Shown here: piece by piece, positions 13,220 to 51,442 of the stretch
Position numbering within the stretch: position 1 is the first letter of the stretch
Layout: every line of letters begins with the position of its first letter
Source: Streptomyces sp. ITFR-21
Lineage (GTDB): Bacteria > Actinomycetota > Actinomycetes > Streptomycetales > Streptomycetaceae
Length of the DNA stretch: 64,000 nt
Assembly (NCBI RefSeq): GCF_031844685.1
Contig: NZ_CP134605.1
Location: 6,050,001 to 6,114,000, forward strand
Reading direction: 5' to 3'
The notes under the pieces: model-generated
The model's database searches: none
Told to the model about the DNA's origin: nothing
Seen by the model: only the letters and a program-made list of their open reading frames with translations
Program-made: the position numbers and the translations under genes

Positions 13220-13223
13220 TGGT

Positions 13224-13263
13224 GTGACCGGTGACCGGTGACCGGTGACCGGTGACCGGTGAC
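13224..13263. repeat. Tandem GTGACCG, about 5.7 copies
   Basis: Exact 7-bp units start just after the GT8 stop. They are the first of two adjacent tandem arrays in the 313-bp spacer before queD. Confidence 0.9.
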
Positions 13264-13300
13264 AGCCCGGACCGCCGGCCACCGCCGTATCGCCCCGTCG

Positions 13301-13380
13301 CCGTACTGCCGTACTGCCGTACTGCCGTACTGCCGTACTGCCGTACTGCCGTACTGCCGTACTGCCGTACTGCCGTACTG
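13301..13380. repeat. Ten exact tandem copies of CCGTACTG
   Basis: Ten perfect 8-bp units (80 bp) without a mismatch. The array is flanked on both sides by the related CCGTATCG. Perfect identity points to recent expansion and likely length variation between strains. No spacers are present, so it is not a CRISPR. It sits 150 bp upstream of queD and could affect its promoter. Confidence 0.95.
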
Positions 13381-13532
13381 CCGTATCGCCGGGCGCCTCC
13401 GTGCCCGTCCCGGCGACGCGTGCCGCCCGGGGCCGGCGGTTCCCCCTTCGGAGGACGGTCGGCGCTGTCTCGGTCCGCACCGTGATGTGCGGTTCCGTCC
13501 CGCTCGCCACCATGGACGCGGGAGGTGCGGCG

Positions 13533-13898
13533 ATGACTTTTCGCATCAGCAAGGAGTTCCACTTCTCGGCCAGCCACCGGCTCGACGGACTCGCCGACGG
13601 GCACCCGTGCAGCCGGCTGCACGGCCACAACTACGTCGTGGAGCTGGAACTCTCCGCGGCGGCGGACGCTCTGAACGACGTCGGCTTCGTACGCGACTAC
13701 GGCGAGCTGGGCGAGTTCGGCGCATGGCTCGACCGCGAGGTCGACCACCGGCACCTCAACGACGTCCTGGCCGACCGCAACCCGTCGGCGGAGAACCTCT
13801 CGCGCTGGCTGTACGAGCGGTGGCAGCCGCGCTACCCCGAGCTGAGCTCCGTGCGGGTCTCCGAGACGCCGAAGACCTGGGCGGAGTACCGCCCGTGA
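13533..13898 (+). CDS. queD: 6-carboxy-tetrahydropterin synthase
   Basis: Converts 7,8-dihydroneopterin triphosphate to 6-carboxytetrahydropterin, the second step to preQ0. The 121-residue protein has the zinc-binding histidines in FHFSASHRL and LHGHNY and the catalytic cysteine in the PCSRLHGH segment, with DHRHLN further on. ATG 13533 was chosen for GGAGGT eight bases upstream; an upstream in-frame ATG at 13512 lacks one. Its stop overlaps the queE GTG (GTGA), so the two are translationally coupled. Confidence 0.93.
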   Translation: MTFRISKEFHFSASHRLDGLADGHPCSRLHGHNYVVELELSAAADALNDVGFVRDYGELGEFGAWLDREVDHRHLNDVLADRNPSAENLSRWLYERWQPRYPELSSVRVSETPKTWAEYRP

Positions 13899-14655
13899 CG
13901 GCGCGCCCGGCGGCGAACAGCGCGGGAGGTGATGCCGCCGCAGGACCGAAGCTCGTGGTGAACGAGATCTTCGGCCCCACTTGACCGTCCAGGGAGAGGG
14001 CCCCTCGGCCGGGCAGCGCTGCGCGTTCGTACGCCTCGGCGGCTGCAACCTGTCCTGCCGGTGGTGCGACACCCCGTACACCTGGGACTGGACCGGCGTC
14101 GGCGACTCCGGCGTGGCCTACGACCCGCGCCGGGAACTCCACCCGCTGCCCTGGCGCGAGGTGTTCGGACGGCTGCTGGCCTACCGGGTGCCGATGGTCG
14201 TCGTCTCCGGCGGCGAACCGCTCAGCCAGCAGAGCCGGCTGGTCCCGCTGGTGCGCGCGCTCGCCGGGACCGGGCACCGGATCGAGATCGAGACCAACGG
14301 GACCATCGCGCCCCGGCCGGAACTCGTCGGCGCCGTACGGTTCAACGTCTCGCCCAAACTGGCCCACTCCGGCGACCCGCAGGCACGCCGGCTGGTCCCC
14401 GGGGCACTCGCCGCGCTGGCCGCCGCACCCGGTACCGCGTTCAAGTTCGTCTGCCGGACCGCGGCCGACCTCGACGAAGTGGCCTCGATCGTCGAACGCC
14501 ACGGCATCGGCCCGGTGTGGATCATGCCCGAGGGGCGGGTACCGCAGGAGCTGGACCGCAACCTGCGCGCACTCGCCGACGAGGTGGTCGCCCGTGGCTG
14601 GAACCTGACGACCAGACTGCACATCGCCGCATGGGGAAACCGGAGGGGTATATGA
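13895..14655 (+). CDS. queE: 7-carboxy-7-deazaguanine synthase, frame interrupted near 13981
   Basis: A radical-SAM enzyme contracting the pterin ring to 7-carboxy-7-deazaguanine. The iron-sulfur motif is CNLSCRWC, followed by DTPYTWDW and the SAM-binding VVSGGEP. The conserved N-terminal strand KLVVNEIFGPT starts from the GTG at 13895 that overlaps the queD stop. It then meets a TGA at 13982-13984. The rest (TVQGEGPSAG onward) is one frame away and could restart at the TTG at 13981, which overlaps that stop as TTGA. Either the gene has an indel, or translation restarts or slips there. The remainder is intact and ends overlapping folE. Confidence 0.85.
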
Positions 14656-15236
14656 CAACGACGACGGGTGAGCCCGAGGAGGGGCGGCTGGCCCGCGACC
14701 CGCTGGAGGAGGTGGCCCGCCGACTCCTGGTGGAGATAGGCGAGGACCCGGACCGGGACGGCCTGAAGGAGACCCCCGGCAGGTTCGCCCGCTGGTGGCG
14801 GGAGTTCAGCCAGTACGACGCGGGCGCCGCCGACACCCGCTTCCCGCTGCACACCCAGGGGCAGATCGTCGTGGTCTCCGACATCAACGTCTGGTCGCTG
14901 TGCGAACACCACCTGCTGCCCTTCTCCTGCGCCCTCACCATCGCCTACAAACCGGACGGCGACGTGCTGGGCCTGTCCAAGTTCGCCCGTATCGCCCACC
15001 GCCACGCGCACCGGCTCCAGGTCCAGGAACGCCTCATCCAGGACATCGCCCAGGAGCTGACCGCCGTGACCGGCTCGCCCGATGTCGCGGTGATCGGCCA
15101 GGGCGAGCACCTGTGCATGAGCATGCGGGGCGTACGCACCCCGGCGCTGGTGACCTCCTCGGTGTTCAAGGGGATCTTCGAGGAGTACGGCCCGGCCCGC
15201 CAGGAACTCATCGCCACCGCCTTCCCGCGACGATGA
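14652..15236 (+). CDS. folE: GTP cyclohydrolase I
   Basis: Makes dihydroneopterin triphosphate from GTP, the entry step of the 7-deazapurine pathway. The 194-residue protein has the zinc site in CEHHLLPF, the second zinc cysteine in HLCMSMRG, and the conserved GVRTPALVTSS. It starts at an ATG that overlaps the queE TGA (ATGA). A copy placed in a que operon, as in toyocamycin-type clusters, is normally a pathway-dedicated paralogue of the housekeeping folate enzyme. Confidence 0.93.
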   Translation: MTTTTGEPEEGRLARDPLEEVARRLLVEIGEDPDRDGLKETPGRFARWWREFSQYDAGAADTRFPLHTQGQIVVVSDINVWSLCEHHLLPFSCALTIAYKPDGDVLGLSKFARIAHRHAHRLQVQERLIQDIAQELTAVTGSPDVAVIGQGEHLCMSMRGVRTPALVTSSVFKGIFEEYGPARQELIATAFPRR

Positions 15237-24029: not shown

Positions 24030-26786
24030 GTGCTTCGTCCCGCCCCGCGCCGCCGTCACCGACAGCCGCGCGCCGCCGCCCTGCTCACCGCCGCGGCTCT
24101 GGTCCTCGCCGGCCTCGCGGCGGGGCTGTTCCCGGTGGCGGCGCCGGCCCACGCGGACCCGATCGGCGCCTGTACGCCGACGACCGGGGCGATCGTCGCG
24201 GTGGACTTCGGCCACTGGGGCGGGCCCGTGCTGCGCGGCTGCGACGCGCACCCCACCACCGGGATGAACCTGCTGCACAACGCCGGGTTCACCACCACCG
24301 GCACCGTGCACGACGGCCCCGGCTTCGTCTGCCGGATCGGCGACGACGGCTTCGACGGCGGCACCCCGTACCCCACCACGGCCGACGAGGCGTGCGTACC
24401 GACCCCGTCGGCGGACGCCTACTGGTCCTTCTGGACAGCCCCCGCCGGCCAGGACACCTGGAGCCACAGCCCGCTCGGCGCGCAAGGCGACCAGCCGCGC
24501 GACGGCGAGGTCGAAGCCTGGACCTACGGCTCCACCGACGCCGGCGGCACCACCGGCGGCCCGGCCTTCACTCCCGGCTCGGTCCGCGCGCAGGGAACTC
24601 CCACCACGCCGCCCACCACGCCTGCCACCACCGGGCCGACGACCCCGCCCACCCCACCCGGCGGCGGACCGGCCGACGTGCCCGCGGCGGCGGCCCCGAC
24701 CACCCCCGCGGACAGCGGCCCGCCGGAACCGGCCGCGACGACGCCCGACCTGGCCAAGGGCGTCGCCTACCTGATCAACCGCGGCAACCTGGTGGGCGGC
24801 CGCTACTACTCCGCCGCGGGGCAGCACACCGGCTTCGCCGACTTCGGCCTGACCGTCGACGGCCTCTTCGCCCTGGCCGCGACCGGCGGCGCGGACACCA
24901 CCCTGGCCGCCGTCACCGACTTCCTCCAGCACGGCAAGGACGGCACCGGCCGTACCGCCGACGACTGGACCCTGATCGGGACCTCCTCCGCGCAGGGCGG
25001 CTCGCTGGCCAAGGAAGCGCTGGCGGCCGAGGTCACCGGCGGCGACCCGCGCTCCTTCGGCGGGCACGACCTCATCAGGGCGCTGGACGGCACGGTCTGC
25101 GCGGCGGCGGACACCGCCAAGGGATGCGCGGCCAAGGGCAACTACGCCTACGCGGGCTCGGTGTTCTCCCAGTCCCTCGGTGTCATAGCCCAACTGCGCG
25201 CCGCCGACTCCGCCGGGGCCGCAGGACCGCTCGCGTACCTGGAGAGCCTCCAGGACCCCGACGGCGCCTGGCCGAGCCTGATCCCCTCCGGCAAGGACCA
25301 GGACGTCGACAGCACCGCCATGGCGATGATGGCCCTCGACCTGGTGCCGGGCGACGCCGCCGCCCGCGCGGTGGCCAAGGGCGCGGCCTGGATCGCCGGC
25401 CGGCAGCTCGCCGACGGCGGCTTCCACGGCGCGGCCGGCGATTCCGTCACCTCCGCCGCCCTCGCCGTCCAGGGCCTCGGCCTGGACGCGGTGCGGTACC
25501 GGGACCGGATCGCCGCGGCACGCCGCTTCCTGGCGGAGCAGCAGAACCCCGACGGCGGCTTCCGCGTCGCCTCCGACAGCGACCAGACGCTGTCCGACGT
25601 CCGCGCCTCCGCCCAGGCCGTCGGCGGCAGCACCGGCACCTCCTTCGGCACGCTGCTGCGGGACCTCGCCGACCAGAAGGCCGCCGCCGCCGGATCCGCG
25701 TACCTGGTCGGTCGGCTCGCCGGCGGCGACCACCTGTCCAACGCCTACGGCCCGGACTACGGCCTGACCGCCGACCTCGCACTCGCGCTGGCCGCGACCG
25801 GCCGCCAGGACACCGCGCTGACGAAGGTGACCGGCTACCTCGCCGGACACACCGCCGACTACGCCGACCCGGCCGGCACCTCCGACTACCCCGGCCCGTA
25901 CAGCGGCGCCACCGCCAAACTCGCCCTGCTCGCCGAGGTGATGGGCCAGGACCCGCACCGCTTCGGCGGCTTCGACCTGCTCGCGACCCTCACCGGCCAC
26001 GTCTGCGCGACCGCCACCGACGACGGCGCCTGCACCGCGCCGGGCGACTTCAGCCAGGCGTACTCCACCGTCTCCCAGGCCCTGGGCGTCCTCGCCCTGG
26101 CACGGGCCGGCCAGACCCCGCCGCCCGCCGCCGTCGACCGGCTGCTCCATCTCCAGTGCGCCGACGGCGGCTTCTCCTCCACCCTCGCCGCCGCGGGCGC
26201 CGACTGCGCCTCGGACGTCGACACCACCGGCTACGCCCTCCAGGCCATCACCCTCGTCCCCGGCCACGCGGACGCCGTGGCCGCGGCCCGCGCCTATCTG
26301 GTCGGGGCCCAGCAGAAGAACGGCGGTTACCGGGGCGCGGCAGGCGTCAGCAGCAACTCCACCGCCCTGGCCGCCCAGGCCCTGCTGGCCACCGACCGGA
26401 TCCGCCCCGCGGCGGCCCGCGGCGGACAGGAGTTCCTGCGCTCGGCGCAGAACAGGGACGGCGGCTTCCGGATCACCGACACGGCCGGCGCCTCCGACAC
26501 CCGCTCCACCACCCAGGCCGTCCCGGCGCTGGCCGGCACCCCGCTGACGACCCTCACCCACGCACTCGCCCCCATCGCCCCGACCGGCAGCGGCGGCACC
26601 GGACCCTCCTCGGGCGGCTCGCCGGGCACCCCGCCGGGCGGTTCGGACTCCGGCGGCGGCTCGCTGGCCGCCACCGGCAGCGACGCGCTGACCGCGGCCG
26701 GTGGCGCCGTACTCCTGCTGGCCGCGGGCGGCGTGCTCACCGCGGCGCGGCGCCGCACCGGACAGGGCACCGGGAGGCACCAGTGA
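24030..26786 (+). CDS. Sortase-anchored alpha/alpha-barrel protein, candidate cobalamin binder
   Basis: A 918-residue exported surface protein. The signal peptide ends near AHADP (residue 44). Residues 47-170 form a four-cysteine domain (VAVDFGHWGGPVLRGC ... YWSFW) shared with the next gene. A Pro/Thr linker follows, then about 600 residues of terpenoid-cyclase-like alpha/alpha repeats (QNPDGGFR, QKNGGYRG, ADGGFHGAA). The repeats lack the DxDDT motif of squalene-hopene cyclases, so cyclisation is unlikely. The C-terminus has LAATG, then a membrane helix and an arginine-rich tail, a class E sortase signal. Control by a cobalamin riboswitch and the ECF genes downstream suggest vitamin B12 capture at the cell wall. 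Confidence 0.78.
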   Translation: MLRPAPRRRHRQPRAAALLTAAALVLAGLAAGLFPVAAPAHADPIGACTPTTGAIVAVDFGHWGGPVLRGCDAHPTTGMNLLHNAGFTTTGTVHDGPGFVCRIGDDGFDGGTPYPTTADEACVPTPSADAYWSFWTAPAGQDTWSHSPLGAQGDQPRDGEVEAWTYGSTDAGGTTGGPAFTPGSVRAQGTPTTPPTTPATTGPTTPPTPPGGGPADVPAAAAPTTPADSGPPEPAATTPDLAKGVAYLINRGNLVGGRYYSAAGQHTGFADFGLTVDGLFALAATGGADTTLAAVTDFLQHGKDGTGRTADDWTLIGTSSAQGGSLAKEALAAEVTGGDPRSFGGHDLIRALDGTVCAAADTAKGCAAKGNYAYAGSVFSQSLGVIAQLRAADSAGAAGPLAYLESLQDPDGAWPSLIPSGKDQDVDSTAMAMMALDLVPGDAAARAVAKGAAWIAGRQLADGGFHGAAGDSVTSAALAVQGLGLDAVRYRDRIAAARRFLAEQQNPDGGFRVASDSDQTLSDVRASAQAVGGSTGTSFGTLLRDLADQKAAAAGSAYLVGRLAGGDHLSNAYGPDYGLTADLALALAATGRQDTALTKVTGYLAGHTADYADPAGTSDYPGPYSGATAKLALLAEVMGQDPHRFGGFDLLATLTGHVCATATDDGACTAPGDFSQAYSTVSQALGVLALARAGQTPPPAAVDRLLHLQCADGGFSSTLAAAGADCASDVDTTGYALQAITLVPGHADAVAAARAYLVGAQQKNGGYRGAAGVSSNSTALAAQALLATDRIRPAAARGGQEFLRSAQNRDGGFRITDTAGASDTRSTTQAVPALAGTPLTTLTHALAPIAPTGSGGTGPSSGGSPGTPPGGSDSGGGSLAATGSDALTAAGGAVLLLAAGGVLTAARRRTGQGTGRHQ

Positions 26787-39205: not shown

Positions 39206-42200
39206 ATGATGGCGAAATTCGTGGTGCCCGGCGACCTTGACTTAACCCTGTCGGACATGCTGCGCGCGGCCACGCTCGCCAGCCCGACCGGACCGCCGTC
39301 TCGTGCGGCACGGAGCGTCTGACCTTCCGCCAGCTCGACGAGCGCAGCACGGACATAGCCGACCACCTGCGGCGACTCGGGGTGCTGCCCGATGAGCCGG
39401 TCGGCATCTTCATGGAGCCGTCCGTCGATCTCATGACCGGGGTCTGGGGCGTCCTGCACGCGGGTGCCGCCTATCTGCCGCTGTCGCCCGAGTACCCGGA
39501 AGACCGCGTGCGCTACATGGTGCTGGACTCGCACGCCGCGGTCATCCTGGCCGACGAGGCCCTGGTGCCCCGGCTGGCCGCGATGACGCCACCGGAAACG
39601 CGCATCGTCACGCTCGCCCAGGCGCGCGCCCACCGGGCGGACACCCGCGGGGGACGGGCCCGCCGGGATACCGGGCAGGACGAGCGGCGCGGGCGGGCCG
39701 CCGACGGCGCACCGGCCCACGCCCGGTCGGACAGCCTCGCGTACGTCATCTACACCTCCGGGAGCACGGGCAACCCGAAGGGCATCGGCATCGAGCACCG
39801 CAGCATCGTCAACCAGATGCGCTGGCTGGCCGACGCGCAGGGGCTGGACCGGCGCCGGACGGTGCTGCAGAAGACACCGCTCAGTTTCGACGCCGCCCAG
39901 TGGGAGGTCCTCGCGCCGGCCGTCGGCAGCGGCGTCGTGATGAGCGAGCCGGGTGCCTACGGCGACCCCGGCCGGATCGTCGAACTGGTCGTGGCACACG
40001 AGGTGACCACCCTTCAGGGCGTGCCCACCTTGCTCCAAGCCCTCGTCGACACCGGCGAGTTGTCCCGCTGCACCTCGCTCACCCAGCTGTTCAGCGGTGG
40101 TGAGGCGCTCACCAGGAGCCTGGCGGTCGAGCTGCTGGCGGCCCTGCCCGGCTGCGAACTGGTCAACCTGTACGGCCCGAGCGAGTGCACGATCAACGCC
40201 TCGGCCCACCCGGTCGACCGGGACACCGTCGGGCAGGGACCGGACATCGTCCCGATCGGACGCCCGGTGCGGGAGACGAGCCTGCACATCCTCGACGCCG
40301 CCCTGCGGCCGGTCGCACCCGGCGAGTCCGGCGAGCTCCACATCGCCGGCCGCCAGGTCGCCCGCGGCTATCTGCACCGCCCCGACCTGACCGCCGAACG
40401 GTTCGTCGCCAACCCGTTCTCCACCGATCCCGGGCACGCCCGCCTCTACCGCACCGGCGACCTGGCCCGCTGGAACGAGGACGGCACCGCGCAGTTCCTC
40501 GGCCGTACCGACAGCCAGGTCAAGCTGCGCGGCTTCCGGGTCGAGCTGGACGAGATCAAGGTGGCCATCGAGGCCCGCGACTGGGTCAAGCGCGCCGCCG
40601 TCCTGGTCCGGGACGACCCGAGAACCGGCGCCAACCTGATCGCCTTCGTCGAACTCGATCCGAACGAGGCCGCGCTGATGGACCAGGGCAACCACGGCGC
40701 CCACCATCAGTCGAAGCAGAGCAAACTGCAACTACGGGCACAGCTGGCCAACCTGGGAGTGCGCGAGGAGGCCGGGCTGCCGGCCGTCGACCTGCCGGGA
40801 CGGTCGCCGACCGCCGAGCAGCGGAGCACGGTGTTCGCCCGCAAGACGTACCGGTTCTTCGAGGGCGGCGAGGTCACCCGGGACGACATCCTGCGCCTGC
40901 TCGCCCAGCCCACCGGGCAACCGGCCGCGCCCCGCCGCCCGCAGACCCTGACCCGGGCCGAGCTCGGCTCACTGCTCCGCTACTTCGGCCAGTTTCCCAG
41001 CGCCGAGCGGCTGTTGCCCAAGTACGGTTACGCCTCGCCCGGTTCGCTGTACAGCACCCAGCTGTACCTGGAGCTGTCCGGTGTCGCGGACCTCGACCCC
41101 GGCTACTACTACTACCACCCGATCGGCCACCGGCTCACGCTGATCAGCCCCGCCCCGGCCGGCGCGCCCAGGCTCCGCATCCACTTCGTCGGGCGCAGGT
41201 CGGCCATCGAGCCGGTCTACCGCAACAACATCCGCGAGGTGCTGCAGTTCGAGGCCGGGCACATGGTCGGCCTGTTCGACGCGGTGCTGCCCCGGTACGG
41301 GCTGCGGATCGGCGCCCCCGTCCCGGCACCGGCGGCCAAGGACGCCCTGCGCTGCCCGGACGAGGACTACTACCTGGCCGCGTACGAGGTGGAGACCTCC
41401 GCCGCCCCGGCCCGGCCGGACCCGGTCGAGACGTACGTGCAGGCCCACCCGGGCCGGATCGCCGACCTGCCCGGCGGCCAGTACCGCTATACCGGCGCCG
41501 ACCTGGTGCGCGTCTCCGACGAGCTGGTCCGCAAGCGGCACGTCATCGCCATCAACCAGGAGGTCTACCAGCGGGCGAGCTTCGGGATCAGCCTGATCGG
41601 CGGCGCGGCCGACCCGTGGCAGCGCTACACCGACCTCGGCCGGGAACTGCAACGCCTCCAGATGAACGACATCGGCCTCGGGCTGATGTCCTCCGGCTAC
41701 AGCTCGGAGACCGGCAACGACCTGCCGTCGGCCCGGCGCATCGCGGAGATCGCCGCCCTCGGCCCCGGCACCGCCTCCTACTTCGCCGTCGGCGGCCGGA
41801 CCAGCGCGGACCAGCGACTGAGCGAGGGCATGAAGGAGGACTCCGTCCACATGCGCGGCCCGGCCGAGATGATCAAGGACGACCTCGCCGACGGCCTGCC
41901 GCGCTACATGCTGCCCAACCGGATCGCCGTACTGGACTCCTTCCCGCTCACCCCCAACGGCAAGATCGACCACCAGGCGTTGCGGGCGATGGACGAGGCC
42001 ACCGTGGACGACACCGAAACACCGGTCGTCGCGCCGCGCACGCCCACCGAGGAAGCGATCGCCGCGCTGTGGCAGAAGGCGCTGCGGCGGCCGACGGTCT
42101 CCACCCAGGAGGACTTCTTCGCCGTCGGCGGCCACTCGCTGACCGCGGTCAACCTGGTCAGCCGGATCAACCGGGAACTCGGCAGCTCCCTGCCGCTCCA

Positions 42201-43311
42201 GGTGCTGTTCGAGTCGCCGACCATCGCCGGGCTGGCCCGGCGCGTGGACCGCGAACCCACGACCGCGCTGTCCCGGCTGGTGCGGCTGCGCGGCGACGGC
42301 GGCGGCCGGCCGAGCTTCTGCTGGCCGGGGCTGGGCGGCTACCCGATGAGCCTGCGGCTGCTGGCCAGCAGGCTGCACCTGGAGCGGCCGTTCTTCGGCG
42401 TCCAGGCGCACGGCATCAACGCGGGCGAGGTGGCGTACCCGACCTTCGACGAGATGGTCGCCAGGGACATCGACATCATCAGACGGGTCCAGCCGGCCGG
42501 CCCCTACGTGCTGTGGGGGTATTCCTTCGGCGCCCGGGTCGCCTTCGAGGCGGCCTACCAACTGGAGCGCGCCGGCGAACAGGTCGAGGAAGTGGTCCTG
42601 ATCGCGCCGGGCAAACCGCGGGTGGAGGTCCGCGAGGCCGGGCGGGCCGGCGCGGCGGTCAGTTTCGCCGACACCACCTTCGTGTCGATCCTGTACTCGG
42701 TGTTCGCCGGAAACCTCGCCCAGGAGGCGGTCGACGCCTGCCTGGAAGCCACCCACGACGAGGACTCCTTCGTCGACTTCGTCTGCGGCCGGTTCGAGCA
42801 CCTGGACCGTGAACTGGTCCGCAGGATCGTCGGCGTGGTGTGGCGGACGTTCCTGTTCGAGTACGCGCCCGGCGAACTGGCCGAACGCAGCATCAAGGCA
42901 CCGATCACCGTGTTCCGGGCCGCGGGGGACCAGGACTCCTTCCTCGACTCCGGCCACGCGCTGTCCCGTACGCCGCCCACGACCACCCGGCTCGCGGCCG
43001 ACCACTACGGTCTGCTGCGCGCGTCCGGAATAGACGAACTCGTCACCGCCATCCAGTCCGCACGGCTCACCAGAAAGGCCACCGAAGTGCCGCACGTCAA
43101 CATCAAGCATTTCCCGAGCGACCTCGACGCCGCCCAGATCTCCACCCTGGTCGACGCGATCACCAGCGCGGTCCGTACCGCCTTCTCCGTCGACGACGGG
43201 GCCGTGTCGATAGCCCTCGAACCGGTGGCCCAGGAGGTCTGGAATGAGCGGGTGTACATCCCGGAGATCGTCAAGGGCACCGGGAACCTGGTCAAGGTCC
43301 CCAACTACTGA
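39206..43311 (+). CDS. Indigoidine-synthetase-like NRPS (A-Ox-T-TE) with tautomerase domain; 5' frameshift
   Basis: About 1,368 residues, strongly like BpsA/IndC. The adenylation core YTSGSTG is near residue 181; my reading of the pocket gives D-A-W-Q-F-G-L-I-N-K, as in glutamine-activating indigoidine synthetases. An FMN oxidase domain (residues about 580-890: PGYYYYHP, YRNNIREVL, MSSGYSSETGN) is inserted before A10 (NGKIDH, 918). A carrier serine (GGHSLTA, 974) and thioesterase (GYSFG, 1105) follow. From residue 1293 comes PHVNIKHFP, a 4-oxalocrotonate-tautomerase-like domain. The start is ATG 39206 after GAGGGG, but one base is missing near 39276 between this N-terminus and RQPDRTAVSCG. 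Codon 13 is TTA. Confidence 0.9.
43087..43311 (+). CDS. Possible separate tautomerase from internal GTG start
   Basis: In frame with the NRPS, GTG 43087 is followed directly by CCG. Initiation here would give Met-Pro-His-Val-Asn-Ile, and Met removal would expose the N-terminal proline needed by 4-oxalocrotonate tautomerases. AGAAAGG lies eight bases upstream. The 74-residue product has the PptA/YdcE-like pattern, with VSIALEPV and a C-terminal VYIPEI. As part of the fusion this proline would be blocked. Whether it is made separately is unproven. Confidence 0.4.
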   Translation: MPHVNIKHFPSDLDAAQISTLVDAITSAVRTAFSVDDGAVSIALEPVAQEVWNERVYIPEIVKGTGNLVKVPNY

Positions 43312-43372
43312 GCCGGCCCACCGCATCCGACGGGGCCACCGGTCGACCACGCCGCCACAGAAGGAGGACCGC

Positions 43373-43981
43373 ATGCGCAGGACGATCGCCAGGGCGAAGG
43401 AGGATCTCGCCATGATCGTCGCGCGAGACCCGTCCATCGGCAATCGCGCGGAGGCACTGCTGCACCCGGCGCTGCCGGCGCTGTGGACCCACCGGCTGGC
43501 CCACGGCCTGCACACCCGTGGCCACCGCCGGATCGCGCGGCTCCTGGCCTACCTGGCGCGCGCCGCGACCGGCGGCATCGAGATCCATCCGGGCGCGAGC
43601 CTGGGCCGCCGCGTGTTCATCGACCACGGGGCCGCGGTGGTGATCGGGGAGACCGCCGAGATCGGCGACGACGTCACGATCTTCCACCAGGTCACGCTCG
43701 GGGCGGTCGGCTGGTGGCGGGACAACCGGCGCGAGCCCGCCGCCCGCCGGCACCCCAGGGTCGGCGACCGGGTGGTGATCGGCACCAACGCGATCGTGCT
43801 CGGCCCGGTCACCGTCGGCGACGACGCGCTGGTCGGCGCCGGTTCGCTGGTCGTCACCGATGTCCCGGCCGGCGCCCGGGTGCTGGCCCCCGTCGCCGAG
43901 ATCGTGCCGCGGCCGGCCCCCGAGGACCGCGTGGAGCCGGCGCCATCGCTCCGCGCCCTGGCCACCTTCGGGTGCTGGTAA
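43373..43981 (+). CDS. Serine O-acetyltransferase (EpsC/CysE type)
   Basis: Makes O-acetylserine from serine and acetyl-CoA. The 202-residue protein has the left-handed beta-helix hexapeptide repeats (GIEIHPGASLGRRVFIDHG, GDDVTIFHQVTLG, VVIGTNAIVLGPVTVGDDALVGAGS). The catalytic histidines in IDHG and FHQVT are present. The start has AAGGAGG. The N-terminal helical part is shorter than in E. coli CysE, as in EpsC-type enzymes. Lying between the NRPS and a cysteine-synthase-like gene, it most likely supplies O-acetylserine for the cluster. Confidence 0.9.
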   Translation: MRRTIARAKEDLAMIVARDPSIGNRAEALLHPALPALWTHRLAHGLHTRGHRRIARLLAYLARAATGGIEIHPGASLGRRVFIDHGAAVVIGETAEIGDDVTIFHQVTLGAVGWWRDNRREPAARRHPRVGDRVVIGTNAIVLGPVTVGDDALVGAGSLVVTDVPAGARVLAPVAEIVPRPAPEDRVEPAPSLRALATFGCW

Positions 43982-44049
43982 CGACCGCCCCGTCCCTAGT
44001 CCGTCGCAGCTCAGCCCGGCCGCGTGCCGGTACGCCATTGGAGATACAG

Positions 44050-46290
44050 ATGATCCACGTCGGTGTCCTGGAGAGCAATCTCTCCGGTTCCGGGTTCGAA
44101 GGTCTGCAGATCATCAAGGAACTCGACTGCCGCGTCACCTTCTTCACCCGTGACCTGGACCGCTACCTCGAAGTGCCGGGCGGCCCGGCCTACTTCGACG
44201 CCTACGTCGACGAGATCGTGCACTGCGAGACGAACATCCTTGAGGAACTCCTCCCGCATGTACACGAGATCGCGGCCAAGCAGCCCTTCGACGCGTTCCT
44301 GACCCTGGCCGAGTACGACGTCGTGGTGGCCGCCGAGGTGGCGGTCCTGCTCGGACTGCCCACGGTCAGCGTCGACGGCGTCGCGCAGGCCCGCAACAAG
44401 GCCTTCATGCGCCGCCGCTGCGCCGCGGCCGGCGTGCCGATGCCGGCGTTCCGCGCGGTGCAGACCCCGGCCCAGGCGGAGTCGGCCGCGCTGGAGATCG
44501 GCCTGCCCTGCGTGGTGAAGCCGGCCGACGAGACCAGCAGCGCCGACGTCCGGCGGGTGGCGACCGCGGCGCAGGCCGCCGAGCACGTCGCGCTGATCCG
44601 GTCCCGAGTGGAGAACACCCGCGGCCAGAGCCGCTACCACGAGCTGCTGGTCGAGGAATACCTGAGCGGCCCCGAGGTCAGCGTCGAGGTGCTCGCCGAG
44701 GGCGACCGGTTCGAGGTGCTCGGCGTGACCGACAAGTCGGTGGGCGGCCAGGGCTACTTCGTCGAGATGGGCCACAGCTTCCCCTCCGGCCTGCCCGAGC
44801 CGGTCGTACGCGCCTGCGGCGAACTGGCGGTGGACGCGCTGCGCGCGGTCGGGTTCGACCTCGGCATGGCCCATGTCGAGATCAAGGTGACCGGGTCGGG
44901 ACCCAAGCTCATCGAGATCAACCCGCGGCCCGCCGGCGGCAAGATCACCTACCTGGTCGACCGCGCCCTCGGCATCAGCTCGCTGGAGTTCGTGATCCGG
45001 CAGTACCTCGGCCAGCCGCTGCCGGCCGAGGTGGTGCCCGCCGAGCCGGTCGGCGGCGCCGCCATCCGCTACCTGACCGCCCCGCCCGGCCGGGTGGTGT
45101 CCGTCAGCGGCCAGGACCGGGCCGCCGCGCTGCCGGGCGTACTGGAGGTCACCCTCAAGCCCAAGCCGGGCGACGTGCTGCGGGAACTGCGGCGCAACGG
45201 CGACCGGGCCGGGCACGTGCTCGTGGTGGCCGAGACCGCCCAGCTGGCCCAGCGCACCGCGGAGGCCGCCGCGCACGAGATCGTCATCGCGACCGAGCCG
45301 GTCCGCCGGCGCCCGGTCGCCGACGCGCTGGTCGACCTGATCGGCGGTACGCCGCTGCTGCGGCTGCCGCTGGACCGGGTCCTGGACGAGGCACTCGGCG
45401 ACGCCACCGTGCTGGCGAAGCTGGAGCTGTTCAACCCGTGGTCCAGCAGCAAGGACCGGGCCGCCCTGTCGATGCTGCGCGGCGCCGAGGAGAACGGGCT
45501 GCTCACCCCGGGCAGCGGCACCGTCATCGAGGCGACCTCGGGCAACACCGGTATCTCGCTCGCTGCGTTGGCGGCGGCCCGCGGCTACCGGTGCCTCATC
45601 GTGCTGCCGGACAACGCCACCCCCGAGCGGGTGGGCATCCTGCGCTCGCTCGGCGCCGAGGTGGTGCGGACACCGCACACCGGAGGGTACGCCGCCGCGG
45701 TCGAGAAGGCCGAGGAGATCCACCGGGAGACCCCCGGGTCGTGGTTCTGCCGCCAGCACGACAACCCGGACAACGTACGGGCGCACTACGAGTCGACCGG
45801 CCCGGAGATCTGGGCGGACGCCGAGGGGCGGATCGACGTGTTCGTCTGCGGGGTCGGTACCGGCGGCACGCTCAGCGGCGCGGGCCGGTTCCTGCGCGAG
45901 CGCAACCCCGCGGTCCGCATCGTGGCGGTCGAACCCGAGGGGTCGCCGCTGCTGTCCGGCGGCGACCCCGGCCCGCACGGCATCCCCGGGTTCAACGGCG
46001 GCTTCATCGCGCCGACCACCGACCGGGACCTCATTGACGAGGTGATCACGGTCTCCGACGCCGACGCGCTGCACACCACCCGGCGGCTCGCGCTGCGGGC
46101 CGGCCTCATGGTCGGTGTCTCGGCCGGCGCGGCCGTGCACGCGAGCGGTGTCGTGGCCGGCCGTCCCGAGTACCGGGGCAAGCGTGTGGTGACCCTGCTG
46201 CCCGACACCGGCGAGCGCTACCTGAGCCTGCTGGGCCGCGAGGCCGAGCCGGTGCTGACCGGCGCCACCGACAGCGGCGGCGCCCGGTGA
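44050..46290 (+). CDS. ATP-grasp ligase fused to a cysteine-synthase-like PLP enzyme
   Basis: A 746-residue two-domain protein. Residues 1-420 form a carboxylate-amine ATP-grasp ligase (CVVKPADETSSADV near 160, LLVEEYLSGPEVSVEV near 198, IEINPRPAGG near 290). Residues 425-735 resemble O-acetylserine sulfhydrylase: PLP lysine in SSSKDRA near 468, substrate loop EATSGNTGI near 496, and phosphate loop GTGGTLSGAG near 605. The PLP domain would replace the acetyl group of O-acetylserine with a nucleophile; the ligase domain would couple the product. The fusion implies direct transfer. GGAG seven bases upstream fixes ATG 44050. Confidence 0.88.
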   Translation: MIHVGVLESNLSGSGFEGLQIIKELDCRVTFFTRDLDRYLEVPGGPAYFDAYVDEIVHCETNILEELLPHVHEIAAKQPFDAFLTLAEYDVVVAAEVAVLLGLPTVSVDGVAQARNKAFMRRRCAAAGVPMPAFRAVQTPAQAESAALEIGLPCVVKPADETSSADVRRVATAAQAAEHVALIRSRVENTRGQSRYHELLVEEYLSGPEVSVEVLAEGDRFEVLGVTDKSVGGQGYFVEMGHSFPSGLPEPVVRACGELAVDALRAVGFDLGMAHVEIKVTGSGPKLIEINPRPAGGKITYLVDRALGISSLEFVIRQYLGQPLPAEVVPAEPVGGAAIRYLTAPPGRVVSVSGQDRAAALPGVLEVTLKPKPGDVLRELRRNGDRAGHVLVVAETAQLAQRTAEAAAHEIVIATEPVRRRPVADALVDLIGGTPLLRLPLDRVLDEALGDATVLAKLELFNPWSSSKDRAALSMLRGAEENGLLTPGSGTVIEATSGNTGISLAALAAARGYRCLIVLPDNATPERVGILRSLGAEVVRTPHTGGYAAAVEKAEEIHRETPGSWFCRQHDNPDNVRAHYESTGPEIWADAEGRIDVFVCGVGTGGTLSGAGRFLRERNPAVRIVAVEPEGSPLLSGGDPGPHGIPGFNGGFIAPTTDRDLIDEVITVSDADALHTTRRLALRAGLMVGVSAGAAVHASGVVAGRPEYRGKRVVTLLPDTGERYLSLLGREAEPVLTGATDSGGAR

Positions 46291-47669
46291 CCGCCTCCGC
46301 CCCCGCACCTGACTCCGCTCTCGCCCCCACACCTGCCCCCGTCCCCGCCCCGACCCCCGCCTCCGTCCCCGCCTCTGTCCCCGCCCCGACCCCCGCCTCC
46401 GTCACCGCCTCCGCCGACGACCGGCCCCGCCTGCTCATGGTGATGCCGTACCGGCAGTTCGTACGGAAGGCGAAGGCGGCGGGCTTCTGGGTCGGCGCGA
46501 TCTGGGACACCCGACTGGAGACCCCCGACTACCTCGACGACGTACGCGAACTGGCGGACGTCTTCGTACTGACCGACTTCCGGGACGAGGAACTCCTGCG
46601 GGACACCGTCCGGACGGTGGCGACCGAGCACCACGCCTCGGTGATCTACCACATCGGCCGCGAGGAGACCATGGTCAGCGCCTACGAGGTCGCCGAGGAA
46701 CTGCACGCCGAGCTCAACCCGTCCGCCGCGATCCGGCTGCTGGCCGACAAGCACGCCATGCGCGAACTCCTCGCCGAGCACGGCCTGTCCGCGGTGTCGT
46801 ACGCGCTGGCGCCGACCCGGGACGAGGTGCCGGACGCCGTCCTGCGGGTCGGCTGCCCGGTCGTCGTCAAGCCCACCGCGCTCGCCGGCAGCCGCGGGGT
46901 GTTCCTGTGGCGGGGGCCGCAGGACCGCGCCGCCTGGACCGAACTGGTCGACCGGTACGGGTACGACGGCCCGTTCCTGGTCGAGGAGTACCTGCGCGGC
47001 CCCGAGTACAGTGTGGAGACGCTGAGCAGGGACGGCGGGCACCGGGTCGTCGGTATCACCGAGAAGCTGCTCGGACCGCCGCCGCTGTTCGTGGAGATCG
47101 GCCACGTCCATCCGGCGCCGCTGCCGGCCGACCGCGAGCGCGCCATCGCCGACCTGACGACCCGGTTCCTCACCGTGTGCGGGTACCGGTTCGGCCCCGC
47201 GCACACGGAGGTGATCTGGACGCCGCGGGGCCCGCGCATCGTCGAGTCGCAGGCCCGGCTCGGCGGGGACCGGATACCCAGGCTCGTCGAACTGGCCACC
47301 GGTCTTGACATCGAGCAGGCGATCTTCACCGGCCTGGCCGGCAGGCCCGCCGAGCCGCCCGCGCCGACGGCGACGGCCATCGTACGGTTCTTCACCTTCC
47401 CGCCCGGCCGGGTCGACGAGCTGCGCGGCCTGGAGGCGGCCGGTCGGCTCGGCTACGTCGACGAGCTGACCGTACGGCTGCGGCCCGGTGACACCGCGCC
47501 GGCGGTCGTCGACTCCAAGAGCAGGCACGGGCACGTCATCGTCTCCGGCGCCTCCGCGCAGGAGGCGCGGGCCCGCTGCGAGCAGGTGCTCACCACCATC
47601 GAGGCCGTCATCGACGGAACGCCCGCACGGGCGGACGGCCGGGCCGAGCCGCTCAGGACACCCGCGTAG
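46287..47669 (+). CDS. ATP-grasp amino-acid ligase with Pro/Ala N-terminal tail
   Basis: A 460-residue ligase. The first 45 residues are a low-complexity Ala/Pro/Thr/Ser tail coded by CCCGCCCCGACC-like DNA repeats. The ATP-grasp core has CPVVVKPTALAGSRGV near 195, FLVEEYLRGPEYSVE near 231 and RIVESQARLGGDRIP near 315, similar to carnosine-synthase or BacD-like ligases. The GTG start overlaps the previous stop (GTGA). It probably forms one amide bond in the cluster product, with ADP and phosphate released. The partner amino acids are unknown. Confidence 0.85.
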   Translation: MTASAPAPDSALAPTPAPVPAPTPASVPASVPAPTPASVTASADDRPRLLMVMPYRQFVRKAKAAGFWVGAIWDTRLETPDYLDDVRELADVFVLTDFRDEELLRDTVRTVATEHHASVIYHIGREETMVSAYEVAEELHAELNPSAAIRLLADKHAMRELLAEHGLSAVSYALAPTRDEVPDAVLRVGCPVVVKPTALAGSRGVFLWRGPQDRAAWTELVDRYGYDGPFLVEEYLRGPEYSVETLSRDGGHRVVGITEKLLGPPPLFVEIGHVHPAPLPADRERAIADLTTRFLTVCGYRFGPAHTEVIWTPRGPRIVESQARLGGDRIPRLVELATGLDIEQAIFTGLAGRPAEPPAPTATAIVRFFTFPPGRVDELRGLEAAGRLGYVDELTVRLRPGDTAPAVVDSKSRHGHVIVSGASAQEARARCEQVLTTIEAVIDGTPARADGRAEPLRTPA

Positions 47670-47713
47670 GCCGTCAGCCGCGAGGTTCCCCACCACGGAG
47701 AAAGGCAGTGATC

Positions 47714-47752
47714 ATGCAGTGGTCCGTCCCATCAACCAGGAGGTCGGCATGA
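47714..47752 (+). CDS. Possible 12-aa peptide ORF coupled to the next ligase
   Basis: ATG 47714 encodes MQWSVPSTRRSA and ends in a TGA overlapping the next gene's ATG (ATGA). GGAGAAAGG lies upstream at suitable spacing. It could be a translation-coupling leader; a peptide substrate for the ATP-grasp enzymes is conceivable but unsupported. The frame is short enough to arise by chance. Confidence 0.25.
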   Translation: MQWSVPSTRRSA

Positions 47753-49005
47753 CCGCCCCCGGCACGGACGCACAGGTGCTGTTCGTCGGCTACAACGCGG
47801 CCTACCTGCGCGCGATCGACGGGAGGGTGCCCAGCGGATCCGTCGTGGTGATCGAGGAACCCGACATCATCCGCAAGCGGAACCTGCGCGACGCGCCGAC
47901 CGGCTTCGACTGCCTGGAGCGGATCGTCCCGGCCCGGTACCAGCAGTCGGCCGAAGCCCTCGACACCGCCGTCGAACTGGCCGCCGTACGGCCGGTGGCC
48001 GCCGTCGTCCCGGGGCTGGAGTACGCGGTGCCGGCGACGGCCGCACTGGCCGCGAAGCTCGGGCTGCCCGGCGCGACCGAGCCGGCCGCGCAGGCGCTGC
48101 GGGACAAGGTGCGGCTGCGCGAGGTCGCCGGGGCCGGCGGTGTCCGCAACCCGCGCTGGCGGGAGGTGCACGGGCCCGAGGACATCCTCGCCTTCGCCGG
48201 CGACGGCCCGGTGGTGGTCAAGCCGGCCAACCGGCAGGCGAGCGTCGGCGTACAGCTGCTGGACTCCGTGGACGCCGAGACCGCCGCGCGGGCGTGGGCG
48301 CGGACCTCGACGGCCGCCGAGTACGAACAGGTGCCCGACCGGGAGCTGACGTGGCGGTTCCTGGCCGAGGAACGCCTGCGCGGCCCCGAGTACAGCGTCG
48401 AGGCACTGGTGCGGCGCGGCGAGATCATCTTCGAGAACGTCACGGCCAAGACGGTCATCGAGGGGCCGTACCCGGTCGAACTCGGCCATCTGCTGCCCGC
48501 CCCGCTCGACCGGGACGCGCAGGAGGCCTTCGGGACGGCCATCCGGGCGCTGGTCACCGCGATCGGCTTCCGGACCGGCATCCTGCACGCCGAGTGGATC
48601 CTGACCGACGCCGGCCCGACGCTGGTCGAATGCGCCGGCCGCTGCCCCGGCGACTACCTGATCGACCTGATCGACCTGGCCTACGACACCCGGATCAGGG
48701 TGGACCTGATCGACCTGCTCGCCGACCGCCCGGTCACGCTGCCCCGCTCGCCGCGGCGGACATCCGCGATCCGGTTCCTGGCCGCCGCGCCGGGCACGGT
48801 GACCGAGGTGGCCGGCGTGGACACCGCGCAGGCGCTGCCCGGGGTCCACGCCGCCGAGGTGGACGTCGAGGCCGGGCAGGAGGTCCGGCCGTGGGCGTCC
48901 TCCTGGGACCGGGCCGGCCACGTCATCGCGACCGGGCCGGACGCGGCCGCCACCCGGCAGCGCGTCCTGGACGCCGACGCGGCCATCCGCATCACCACCG
49001 GCTGA
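47749..49005 (+). CDS. ATP-grasp amino-acid ligase
   Basis: A 418-residue ligase, the third ATP-grasp domain of the cluster. Visible are GPVVVKPANRQASVGV near 160, FLAEERLRGPEYSVEAL near 205 and TLVECAGRCPGDY near 290. The last has a cysteine-rich variant of the usual E-x-N/A-R metal-binding segment. AGGAGG upstream of ATG 47749 is strong. It is less similar to the other two than they are to each other, which suggests a different acceptor or a cyclising role. Confidence 0.85.
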   Translation: MTAPGTDAQVLFVGYNAAYLRAIDGRVPSGSVVVIEEPDIIRKRNLRDAPTGFDCLERIVPARYQQSAEALDTAVELAAVRPVAAVVPGLEYAVPATAALAAKLGLPGATEPAAQALRDKVRLREVAGAGGVRNPRWREVHGPEDILAFAGDGPVVVKPANRQASVGVQLLDSVDAETAARAWARTSTAAEYEQVPDRELTWRFLAEERLRGPEYSVEALVRRGEIIFENVTAKTVIEGPYPVELGHLLPAPLDRDAQEAFGTAIRALVTAIGFRTGILHAEWILTDAGPTLVECAGRCPGDYLIDLIDLAYDTRIRVDLIDLLADRPVTLPRSPRRTSAIRFLAAAPGTVTEVAGVDTAQALPGVHAAEVDVEAGQEVRPWASSWDRAGHVIATGPDAAATRQRVLDADAAIRITTG

Positions 49006-49014
49006 GGAGGACCT

Positions 49015-50280
49015 GTGTCTGCTCTGTGGCAGCGCGTCCGCGGTCTGCGCGGATCCATACCGGGCGGCCCGGTCGGACTGCGGCTGGCCGTCATGGCGAT
49101 CATCGACGCGGTGGGCACGGGCGCCTTCCTGGCCGTCTCGGTGCCCTTCGTCACCACGTCGGTCCACCTGTCGTCGGGTGACCTCGGCGCCGGCCTGGCG
49201 CTGGCCGCCGCCATCGCCCTCGGCACCGCGATCCCGATCGGGATGGTGGCCGACCGGATCGGCCCGAAGAAGGTCCTGATCGGGGTGAGCCTGTGGCGCT
49301 GCGGCTGCTTCCTGGCGTACCCGTTCATCCGGAACCTGTGGCAGTTCCTGCTGGTGGTGTGCCTGCTCGGCCTGGTCGACAAGGCGGCGGCGCCGATGGA
49401 ACAGGCCCTGGTCGGGCAGGCGGTGCCCACCACGGAACGGGTCAAGGTGATCGCGGTGCTGCGCTCGATGCGCAACGTCGGCTTCACCCTCGGCGCCCTG
49501 CTGGGCGGCGTCGGGCTGCTGATCGGCACCAGGACCGGGTACGCGGTGATCCTGCTGCTCAACGCGGCCTCGTTCGCCGTGCTCGCGACGCTGGCCTCCC
49601 GGCTGCCGCTGCTCAACGCCCCGGCGGCGAACCTGCGCCGGCGCTTCTCGGCCAGCGTGCTGCGCGACGGGTCGTTCCTGTCGTTCTCCGGGATCAACGC
49701 CGTACTCACCATGCACATGACCCTGCTCAGTATCGGCATCCCGCTGTGGATCGTCGGACACACCGACGTCTCGGCCGCGCTGATCGCCCCGCTGCTGGCG
49801 GTCAACACCGTGCTCGCGGTGGTCCTGCAGGTGCGGGCCAGCCGGGGGACCGAGACCATCCCCGGCGCCGCGCGGGCACTGGTGCGGGCCGGGGTCTCGC
49901 TGGCGGCCTGCTGCCTGCTGCTCGTCGCGGCGCCGAAACTGCCGGTCGCCGCCGCGGTCGGGGTGCTGCTGCTGGCCATGATCGCGCTGACCGGCGGCGA
50001 GCTGTGGCAGTCCGCCGGCGGCTGGGGCGGGTCCTATCTGCTCGCGGTGCCCGGCCAGGAGGGGGTGTACCTCTCGGTCTTCTGGCTCGGGGTGAGCGTG
50101 CAGCAGATCGCGGCACCGGTGGTGCTCAGCCTGGTGGTCACCGTCGGTACCACGGCGTGGATCGTGCTGGCCGCGGTGTTCGCCGCCAGCGGCCTGGTGG
50201 CGCCGGCCATCGGCCGGTGGGCGCAGGCACAGGAAGCCGGCCGGGCGGAGCAGGATCCGAGCCTGACGCCCGCCTCGTAA
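49015..50280 (+). CDS. MFS transporter, probable product exporter
   Basis: A 421-residue membrane protein with 12 hydrophobic segments. The MFS loop 2-3 motif appears as GMVADRIGPKKVL near residue 75. The GTG start has GAGGAGG and lies nine bases after the ligase stop, so it is part of the same operon. In this setting it most likely exports the cluster product or gives self-resistance. Confidence 0.85.
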   Translation: MSALWQRVRGLRGSIPGGPVGLRLAVMAIIDAVGTGAFLAVSVPFVTTSVHLSSGDLGAGLALAAAIALGTAIPIGMVADRIGPKKVLIGVSLWRCGCFLAYPFIRNLWQFLLVVCLLGLVDKAAAPMEQALVGQAVPTTERVKVIAVLRSMRNVGFTLGALLGGVGLLIGTRTGYAVILLLNAASFAVLATLASRLPLLNAPAANLRRRFSASVLRDGSFLSFSGINAVLTMHMTLLSIGIPLWIVGHTDVSAALIAPLLAVNTVLAVVLQVRASRGTETIPGAARALVRAGVSLAACCLLLVAAPKLPVAAAVGVLLLAMIALTGGELWQSAGGWGGSYLLAVPGQEGVYLSVFWLGVSVQQIAAPVVLSLVVTVGTTAWIVLAAVFAASGLVAPAIGRWAQAQEAGRAEQDPSLTPAS

Positions 50281-50337
50281 CCGCCGGCGTACGCAGACCC
50301 GTCGCCGGCCGCCGCTTGTCAACAACCAAGGAGAGAC

Positions 50338-50790
50338 ATGTCGATTCCACTGTTCGTTCCGCCGGGCGAGGGCGAGTTCGTCAACATCCGCGACACCAAG
50401 CGGACCTACCTCAAGCTCACCACGCCCGACAGCGACGGCGAGTTCGGCTTCTTCGAGCACCACATGGCCCCGGAGGCGTCCGGCGCCAGCCCGCACGTGC
50501 ACAAGAAGGCCACCGAGATGTTCTACGTGGTCCAGGGCGAGATCGAGTTCACCATCGGGGACCGCAAGGAGGTGGGCACGCCGGGCGCGTTCGCCTACGT
50601 CCCCAAGAACGCGCCGCACGGTTTCACGAACGTGGGCTCGGAGGCCGCGACGCTGCTCATCATGTTCTACCCGATGAACAACCGCGACGACTACTTCCGC
50701 GGTCTGGAGCGCCTCACCCGCAACGGGCGCAACCCGAGCCTGGAGGAGCTGCAGGAGCACATGGCCACGTACGACCAGTACATGGTCTGA
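50338..50790 (+). CDS. Cupin-domain protein
   Basis: A 150-residue single-cupin protein. Motif 1 is SPHVHKKATEMFYVVQGEIEF near residues 55-75, and motif 2 is FAYVPKNAPHGFTNVG near 85-100. The metal-binding His, Glu and His positions are present. AAGGAGAG precedes the ATG. It closes the cluster and could be an oxygenase, an isomerase acting on the pyridone, or a non-enzymatic binder. Confidence 0.8.
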   Translation: MSIPLFVPPGEGEFVNIRDTKRTYLKLTTPDSDGEFGFFEHHMAPEASGASPHVHKKATEMFYVVQGEIEFTIGDRKEVGTPGAFAYVPKNAPHGFTNVGSEAATLLIMFYPMNNRDDYFRGLERLTRNGRNPSLEELQEHMATYDQYMV

Positions 50791-50893: not shown

Positions 50894-51442
50894 TCAGTCG
50901 GCCGTAACCGCCCCGGTACGGAACCGGCGGTGCAACGCACGGATTTCGTCGGCGAGTTCGGGGACGGGACCGGCCACATCGAGGCCGGGGGCGACCTCCT
51001 GGACGGACAGCGCGGCAACCGGCGAGCCGCCGGACACGCCCAGTTCGGCCAGCCAGCCGCGGGCCTGCCGGGACGAGCTCACGTACACGATCCGGCCCAG
51101 GCCCACCCATCCGTGCGCCGCCGCGCACATCGGGCAGTGCTCACCCGAGGTGTAGACGGTCGCCTGGGCCCGCTCCTTCGGGCCCAGGTTGGTCGCCGCC
51201 CACCGGGCGAGTTCGAACTCCGGGTGGCGGGTGGGGTCTCCGCTGGTACGTTCGCGGTTGCGCTCCTCGGCCAGGACCGTGCCGTCCGCGTCGACCAGCA
51301 CGGAACCGAACGGCTCGTCCCCGGCGTCCACCGCCTCGGCCGCCAGCTCCACACAGCGGCGCAGATACGGCAGGTCGGCCTCGCTGACGGCGGCCGCGCG
51401 GTCGGCGTCGCCCTGGGAAAGGTCGTGGTCGTCGAGGGTCAC
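50894..51442 (-). CDS. Zinc-dependent nucleoside/guanine deaminase
   Basis: A 182-residue member of the cytidine-deaminase superfamily. The catalytic motif is RHPEFELARWAA near residue 72 and the zinc-binding cysteines are in EHCPMCAAAHGW near 103. GDEPFGSVLVD is typical of guanine deaminase/TadA relatives. The GTG start has GGAGCAG. It is convergent with the cluster and more likely a housekeeping or salvage enzyme. HPE in place of the common HAE motif is a variant also seen in relatives. Confidence 0.83.
   Translation of the reverse strand: MTLDDHDLSQGDADRAAAVSEADLPYLRRCVELAAEAVDAGDEPFGSVLVDADGTVLAEERNRERTSGDPTRHPEFELARWAATNLGPKERAQATVYTSGEHCPMCAAAHGWVGLGRIVYVSSSRQARGWLAELGVSGGSPVAALSVQEVAPGLDVAGPVPELADEIRALHRRFRTGAVTAD

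Follow-up and report, generated by a model that had tools for sequence, protein, structure and literature searches.

A conserved Streptomyces gene cluster in which a cysteine-synthase-like enzyme may stand in for the minimycin-type C-glycosynthase

Background

The window analysed here is a 64,000-nucleotide stretch of the 7.36-Mb genome of Streptomyces sp. ITFR-21 (G000 C1:6050001-6114000 in our genome set), and it contains a cluster of seven + strand genes at 39206-50790. The first of these encodes a non-ribosomal peptide synthetase (NRPS) of the indigoidine/minimycin type, and it is followed by genes for a serine acetyltransferase, a fusion of an ATP-grasp ligase with a cysteine-synthase-like pyridoxal phosphate (PLP) domain, a second and a third ATP-grasp ligase, a major facilitator superfamily (MFS) protein and a cupin. 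What is a relative of cysteine synthase doing beside such a synthetase? Does it only supply a building block, or does it act upon the ring that the synthetase makes?

The closest precedent is minimycin (oxazinomycin), with its cluster minA-minB-minC-minD-minT. According to PMC8724604, the ring made from glutamine is captured by a partner enzyme: MinB/IndA, a C-glycosynthase, joins the tautomerised NRPS ring to ribose phosphate through a C-C bond. The same review describes MinC as a HAD phosphatase with a DUF4243 domain, and UPRT as the self-resistance gene of minimycin producers.

We lean slightly towards the view that the cluster in the window makes an exported peptide containing a beta-heterocyclyl-alanine. 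A fuller proposal is put forward more tentatively, at a little under even chances: that a cysteine-synthase relative has repeatedly replaced the minimycin-type C-glycosynthase, that it yields C-linked heterocyclyl-alanines which three ligases build into a peptide, and that the tautomerase (Tau) domain of the NRPS, in MinA-type synthetases as well, is a nested gene. If true, this would link the indigoidine/minimycin synthetases to a new route to non-standard amino acids, in which a PLP enzyme of the cysteine synthase family forms a C-C bond with an NRPS product. The C-linked heterocyclyl-alanines, if real, would be the amino acid counterparts of C-nucleosides, and a family of unseen amino acids and peptides would be predicted for numerous Streptomyces, S. 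clavuligerus with its long research history among them, with simple masses to seek.

The first-pass annotation of the window had called the cluster undescribed-looking. In the open-access literature we found no description of it, nor of an indigoidine-type synthetase paired with a cysteine-synthase-like enzyme. The cluster is conserved rather than unique to this genome, and its NRPS is of a known, MinA-like kind.

Results and discussion

Type of the synthetase

The NRPS gene (39206..43311) was assigned by profile matches, alignment and ortholog comparison. Its protein matches the Pfam models AMP-binding (39388..40374; 5.8e-69), PP-binding, for the thiolation (T) domain (42055..42246; 1.9e-15), and Thioesterase (42316..42660; 2.8e-23), the thioesterase (TE) domain itself being longer than its Pfam stretch. 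The oxidation (Ox) region gave no Pfam match at 1e-3, and Ox was assigned by alignment alone, within a stretch (40576..42000) that also served as the query for relatives. Over 93% of its length the protein is 55% identical to the NRPS of S. lavendulae pSA3239. The pocket of the adenylation (A) domain is glutamine-like and its selectivity residues are near-identical to those of the pSA3239 NRPS, at the code positions defined for GrsA; relatives from S. clavuligerus and S. mirabilis were also compared.

The gene closes with 75 codons for a PptA-like tautomerase (E. coli YdcE 7.6e-7; PptA model 6.2e-19, with 68.3 bits under a cut-off of 83; Pfam Tautomerase 21 of 22 bits). Because of this C-terminal tautomerase we read the NRPS as MinA-like rather than as a plain indigoidine synthetase. 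The earlier comparison with BpsA/IndC held for the general type and the glutamine-like pocket; it missed the tautomerase, and minimycin is the closer relative. The pSA3239 system, of the BpsA/IndC type, resembles the window NRPS in identity and selectivity residues, but there the tautomerase has a gene to itself, next to one of the PsuG family, whereas that of the window lies in the NRPS frame. A plain indigoidine cluster is argued against by the tautomerase and the partner genes. A minimycin cluster was also rejected: the A-Ox-T-TE-Tau synthetase is common to both, but the window cluster lacks MinB/IndA, MinC and MinD and has instead an acetyltransferase, a PLP enzyme, three ligases, a cupin and a deaminase.

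Exchange of partner enzymes beside the synthetase

Relatives of the Ox region were found at 78 loci in 69 of the 394 genomes of the family, eight of them of the window type. In a quick tree built from 86 Ox regions, the window-type sequences form a single clade (100). We examined 67 of the 70 remaining loci, leaving out G212:C366 (a further contig whose match values are identical) and the fragments G133:C162 and G188:C173. Near the NRPS, 16 of the 67 have an IndA of the Pfam Indigoidine_A family, 15 have a PLP enzyme of the cluster kind, 36 have neither and none has both. The PLP loci include L117, L153 and L155, in which the PLP gene is 12-14 kb away, outside the fetched stretch (with L051, L052, L058); L120, L138 and L141 are short and lie close to contig ends, which makes 'neither' less certain for the last two. 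UPRT is present in all 16 IndA loci and in none of the other 51. Viewed from the other side, of 55 matches to the fusion protein or PLP domain (E<=1e-100), 25 have an Ox match no more than 20 kb away; these 25 are spread over 22 genomes.

Among the partner-bearing rows, the best NRPS tree shows six swaps between the PLP and IndA labels. Since the two swap beside the same kind of NRPS, they appear to replace each other, and the PLP enzyme therefore probably captures the same ring, with aminoacrylate in place of ribose phosphate. A PptA-type tautomerase is found in 15 of the 16 IndA loci, 12 of the 15 PLP loci and 6 of the 36 others; for the three PLP loci without one, the overlapping regions L053, L058 and L064 show a tautomerase of the 4-OT type. 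Tests that treat the loci as independent gave a Fisher p of 5e-9 for tautomerase versus partner and p 0.009 for the mutual exclusion of PLP enzyme and IndA.

The clearest parallel to minimycin is on the S. clavuligerus megaplasmid, where the gene for the NRPS-tautomerase is followed by those for an EamA transporter, an acetyltransferase, a PLP enzyme with 67% identity and, last, a questin-oxidase-like protein (PF14027, the present name of DUF4243); G098 has the same gene set. A plasmid of S. mirabilis carries NRPS-tautomerase, IndA, HAD/questin-oxidase and UPRT, which we read as a minimycin-type example. The C-terminal half of the MinC-like protein encoded there shares 55% identity over 407 aa with the questin-oxidase-like protein of S. 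clavuligerus. Since a ring-modifying enzyme of C-nucleoside pathways thus adjoins the PLP enzyme, both pathways may pass through similar C-substituted rings. An indigoidine-like cluster in S. clavuligerus (PMC4640377) and a 'cysteine synthase' gene of pSCL4 (PMC5702194) are mentioned in two papers.

In four PLP loci (L102, L108, L166, L167) no ATP-grasp match was found within about 20 kb, and the transporter there is EamA-like. The free amino acid may be the product of these loci, which the window type would then dress as a peptide.

Outside the window's phylum, the plasmid of a proteobacterium, Rhizobium sp. CB3171 (L170), has an indigoidine-type NRPS gene, followed after 3 nt by a tautomerase gene of its own; an MFS gene is also present.

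The cysteine-synthase-like domain and its partners

The PLP domain (about 45298-46287, in the fusion gene 44050..46290) has the fold of cysteine synthase by profile and fold comparison (model mean pLDDT 79, from 14 sequences). It shares with CysK and the beta-substituted alanine synthases the PLP lysine motif and the TSGNTG loop, and differs from CysK in its fusion to an ATP-grasp ligase and in its NPxSS and Q-H motifs. The genome's four other members of the family, by inspection including a CBS-domain protein and a CysM-like one, are 38-47% identical to it. The cluster-type domains branch separately from these paralogs in the tree, at a point where long branches meet. Beside the active site a Gln-His pair is present in all 16 window-type domains and in 51 of 53 cluster-type rows (four of the rows are second copies of the same DNA, which were omitted from the tree); the position is Gln-Tyr in all four of the genome's own paralogs and Gln-Phe in two solved cysteine synthases. 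A changed residue by the nucleophile site would fit a changed nucleophile, without amounting to proof of one.

Could the acetyltransferase and PLP domain instead supply only a known amino acid, be it cysteine or, for example, diaminopropionate, for ligation to the NRPS product? The fold and sequence are those of cysteine synthases, with a cysK score of 333.8 bits, and the module also exists without an NRPS, as described below. That score is however under the NCBIfam cut-off of 350.95, as are those for cysKM (340 of 344.15) and SbnA (216.7 of 349.95 bits); His replaces Phe/Tyr beside the active-site Gln; PLP enzyme and IndA exclude each other in the 67 loci; and the four loci without an ATP-grasp match indicate that an adjoining ligase is dispensable. 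We regard a simple supply of building blocks as distinctly unlikely, and its variant through SbnA-made diaminopropionate was rejected on the score.

A second alternative keeps the same partners but joins the ring through nitrogen (or oxygen), as in mimosine, to give an N-linked pyridonyl-alanine. This was the analogy drawn in the first-pass annotation. Plant beta-substituted alanine synthases of the cysteine-synthase fold make N-linked products, plant enzymes are the nearest solved relatives of the PLP domain, and the ring has several nucleophilic atoms. The fold neighbours also include beta-cyanoalanine synthase, which uses a carbon nucleophile. Against an N-link stand the C-C bond-forming nature of the exchanged partner (a C-glycosynthase in PMC8724604), the retained tautomerase and the homologue of the MinC-type ring oxidase in S. 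clavuligerus, none of which is decisive. Minimycin, with its tautomerase and its capture at a ring carbon, is the closer analogy; a C-linked adduct is at least as likely, and we consider the N-linked product unlikely. The broader idea in that annotation, of a ring joined to an O-acetylserine-derived alanine, gains support from the exchange in the 67 loci, the separate PLP clade and the change to His; the mimosine-like link is the less favoured part.

The serine acetyltransferase (43373..43981; cysE 1.6e-51, with 174.5 bits under the cut-off of 210.65; EpsC 157.3, above the cut-off of 150) is predicted to supply O-acetylserine. Its C-terminal tail ends in Gly-Cys-Trp in the window and in all 14 orthologs examined (of 15; L018 was missed). 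Housekeeping serine acetyltransferases dock by a C-terminal isoleucine, and Gly-Cys-Trp is a possible docking tail for the PLP domain.

The fusion protein matches ATP-grasp_4 (5.3e-19), LAL_C2 (4.7e-24) and PALP (5.6e-74), and all three ligases have ATP-grasp_4 and LAL_C2 above the Pfam cut-offs. The second ligase (46287..47669) has a GTG start that overlaps the stop of the fusion gene, and the likelier start of the third (47749..49005) is ATG 47749, behind aggagg. The L-amino acid ligases BL00235 (E 1e-19) and BacD (6e-9) match the first ligase domain; the window differs from them in having three ligases in a row, one of them fused to a PLP enzyme. Coupling of the new residue into a small peptide, as predicted earlier, fits these L-amino acid ligase-like enzymes. 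The D-cycloserine pathway also combines O-acetylserine, the CysK-like O-ureidoserine synthase DcsD and the ATP-grasp enzyme DcsG; it has no NRPS and uses another nucleophile, and 3x43 is a weaker match.

A putative internal start for the tautomerase

In PMC5818174 the tautomerase superfamily is described as using an N-terminal proline, some members lacking it, and a tautomerase motif is said to be appended to NRPSs such as indigoidine synthetase. A proline fused internally would have no free amine. In the window the tautomerase (43087..43311) has a putative start, GTG 43087, immediately 5' of Pro-1 and a Shine-Dalgarno-like AGAAAGG (43072..43078) 8 nt upstream of that GTG.

The codon before Pro-1 is GTG in 14 of the 15 orthologs and ATG in the other; among 12 diverged fused copies it is ATG in seven, GTG in three and TTG in two, and it is ATG in S. 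clavuligerus and GTG in S. mirabilis. With the window's own, all 30 copies that have the catalytic proline carry a start codon just before it, a count in which many close relatives overstate independence, from which L123 and the misplaced hit L110 were left out, and which takes in the frame-broken L010. The residue itself varies (Val, Met, Leu), and its codon is always a possible start. Start-type codons make up 3.6% of the codons in these genes, in which GTG accounts for 33% of valine and TTG for 2% of leucine codons. The continuity of the NRPS-tautomerase frame in the 15 orthologs was judged from gene calls.

A Shine-Dalgarno-like sequence precedes most of the internal starts. The mean energy of the upstream duplex with the 16S tail is -8.3 kcal/mol in 28 copies, against -3.25 kcal/mol for 1,180 other in-frame start codons in those same genes, of which 5.8% are as strong as the median of these copies. 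In 11 of the 16 window-type genes, arginine in the upstream motif is encoded by AGA, which makes up 1.1% of the arginine codons in these genes. Separately encoded tautomerases begin with ATG or GTG before Pro at 19 of 20 loci, the twentieth being a misplaced hit. The one fused tautomerase without Pro-1, that of L123, beside IndA, has no start codon at that position either; for the proposed pathway it counts as evidence against. From this codon and upstream pattern we conclude that the fused tautomerases are probably nested genes that have retained their own start. This would change the view of the Tau domain, for which a free N-terminal proline is impossible inside a fused protein.

Proposed pathway

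The gene families, the conserved order, the partner exchange, the codon and upstream pattern at Pro-1 and the Phe/Tyr-to-His change are observed; from the families and the minimycin precedent we infer the reactions, bond position and product that follow. The NRPS would load glutamine, oxidise and cyclise it, and release an aminopyridinedione, which if left alone would dimerise to indigoidine. The tautomerase, as a separate small protein made from the internal start and with a free proline amine, would shift the ring to the minimycin-type tautomer. The acetyltransferase would make O-acetylserine, from which the PLP domain would form an enzyme-bound aminoacrylate open to attack by the ring. As in minimycin, a glutamine-made ring would thus be captured by a partner enzyme, with the PLP domain in the place of MinB/IndA and most likely with a C-C bond at the same ring carbon (C4 of glutamine), to give a 3-(aminodioxopyridyl)alanine. 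The cupin, perhaps with the deaminase, would trim or oxidise the ring, the three ligases would couple the new amino acid to others, and the MFS protein would export the peptide. Azatyrosine was considered as a product and set aside; the word is absent from the best 20 of 8,197 matching open-access papers.

Several observations weigh against this pathway. The link between tautomerase and partner is not significant when relatedness is allowed for (three to five independent pairs; sign test median p 1). As far as the fetched regions reach, just 10 of the 15 PLP loci have an acetyltransferase, and questin oxidase occurs within 20 kb in only 1 of the 15 (plus S. clavuligerus) and in 3 of the 16 IndA loci, with none in the window cluster. 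The acetyltransferase-PLP-cupin-EamA module is also found without an NRPS (L060-L062, L069), and the nucleophile of the PLP enzyme is therefore not always the NRPS ring. Finally, the first-pass annotation overlooked that in this assembly the start ATG 39206, which is the ortholog start site, does not share the reading frame of the A domain: compared with each of the 15 orthologs, the gene lacks 1 nt near 39273-39278, within a C run. The frame of the A domain stays open from at least 39382 onwards.

The frame break is either a sequencing slip or a recent mutation, and the NRPS of the sequenced strain may be broken. Has the cluster decayed, so that nothing is made? The single missing base speaks for it; however, a base lost from a short C run is a typical assembly error, the remaining genes have unbroken reading frames and share 72-89% identity with their orthologs, and decay would bear on this strain only and not on the pathway. 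We think it very unlikely. A different frame break was seen in L010 (S. fulvorobeus), in the TE region near 8755, and as deposited its tautomerase is in another frame.

The NRPS-free clusters perhaps represent another family of heterocyclyl-alanines. By inspection, the neighbouring genes in L060, L061, L062 and L069 look like asparagine synthetase, PrpF, acyl-CoA dehydrogenase and dihydroorotase/allantoinase. Cupins of the window kind adjoin the PLP enzyme there and in three of the ligase-less NRPS loci (L102, L108, L166); since it also occurs in NRPS-free clusters, the cupin may go with the PLP product and not with the ring.

Conservation of the cluster

A search for the same gene order elsewhere, which the first-pass annotation had suggested, found it in 15 other genomes. 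The fusion protein was searched in one genome per species and 22 loci matched, of which 15 are true orthologs (82-87% identical) and seven match one domain only (28-43%). The order is the same in all 15 ortholog records (14 carry a Streptomyces label, the other is entered as 'Actinobacteria bacterium OV320'), and because it repeats in this way the cluster is more than a chance arrangement. Thirteen of the 15 clusters are complete; in L011 the contig stops once the second ATP-grasp gene is passed, and L014 is without the cupin. As had been noted for the cluster, indA is absent: no match to IndA, UPRT, HAD or MinC was found in any of the 16 window-type loci. One IndA-family gene is present in the same genome about 252 kb from the cluster.

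Within the family, the fusion at 84-100% identity is found in 8 of 394 genomes, the window's own counted. Across the phylum, a PLP domain of the cluster kind at 1e-100 is found in 3 of 396 genomes, all in the same family as the window.

Two ortholog loci have unusual gene calls. In L013 (S. phaeofaciens) a reverse open reading frame, 13424-14629 (-), is inserted between the second and third ATP-grasp genes, and in L022 (S. atriruber) the second and third ligases are called as a single 843-aa reading frame at 12142-14670.

Remaining genes and neighbours

The other members of the cluster were, like the rest of the earlier gene list, confirmed by profile matches. The MFS exporter (49015..50280; Pfam MFS 1.8e-22) is assigned as such by family. 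The cupin (50338..50790; Cupin_2 2.6e-18) is a single-domain protein that keeps the full His-x-His, Glu, His metal motif; its model was poor (mean pLDDT 62.6), so a profile search of solved structures was used instead of a fold search and gave quercetin 2,3-dioxygenase as the nearest solved relative.

Next to the cupin, on the - strand, is a gene (50894..51442) for a protein of cytidine/TadA-type deaminase fold. It is probably part of the cluster: 14 ortholog loci have sequence reaching far enough past the cupin, and in 13 of them a deaminase adjoins it. In 13 of 14 ortholog loci (L009-L023) an F420-type LLM oxidoreductase follows the deaminase; the window has the deaminase without the LLM gene.

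Elsewhere in the window ARAGORN called a tRNA with a four-base anticodon (ctgg) at 25528-25616 (-), which is probably a false call. Just beyond the window, at G000 C1:6115218-6124060, lie pieces of NRPS together with a PLP enzyme of SbnA-like appearance.

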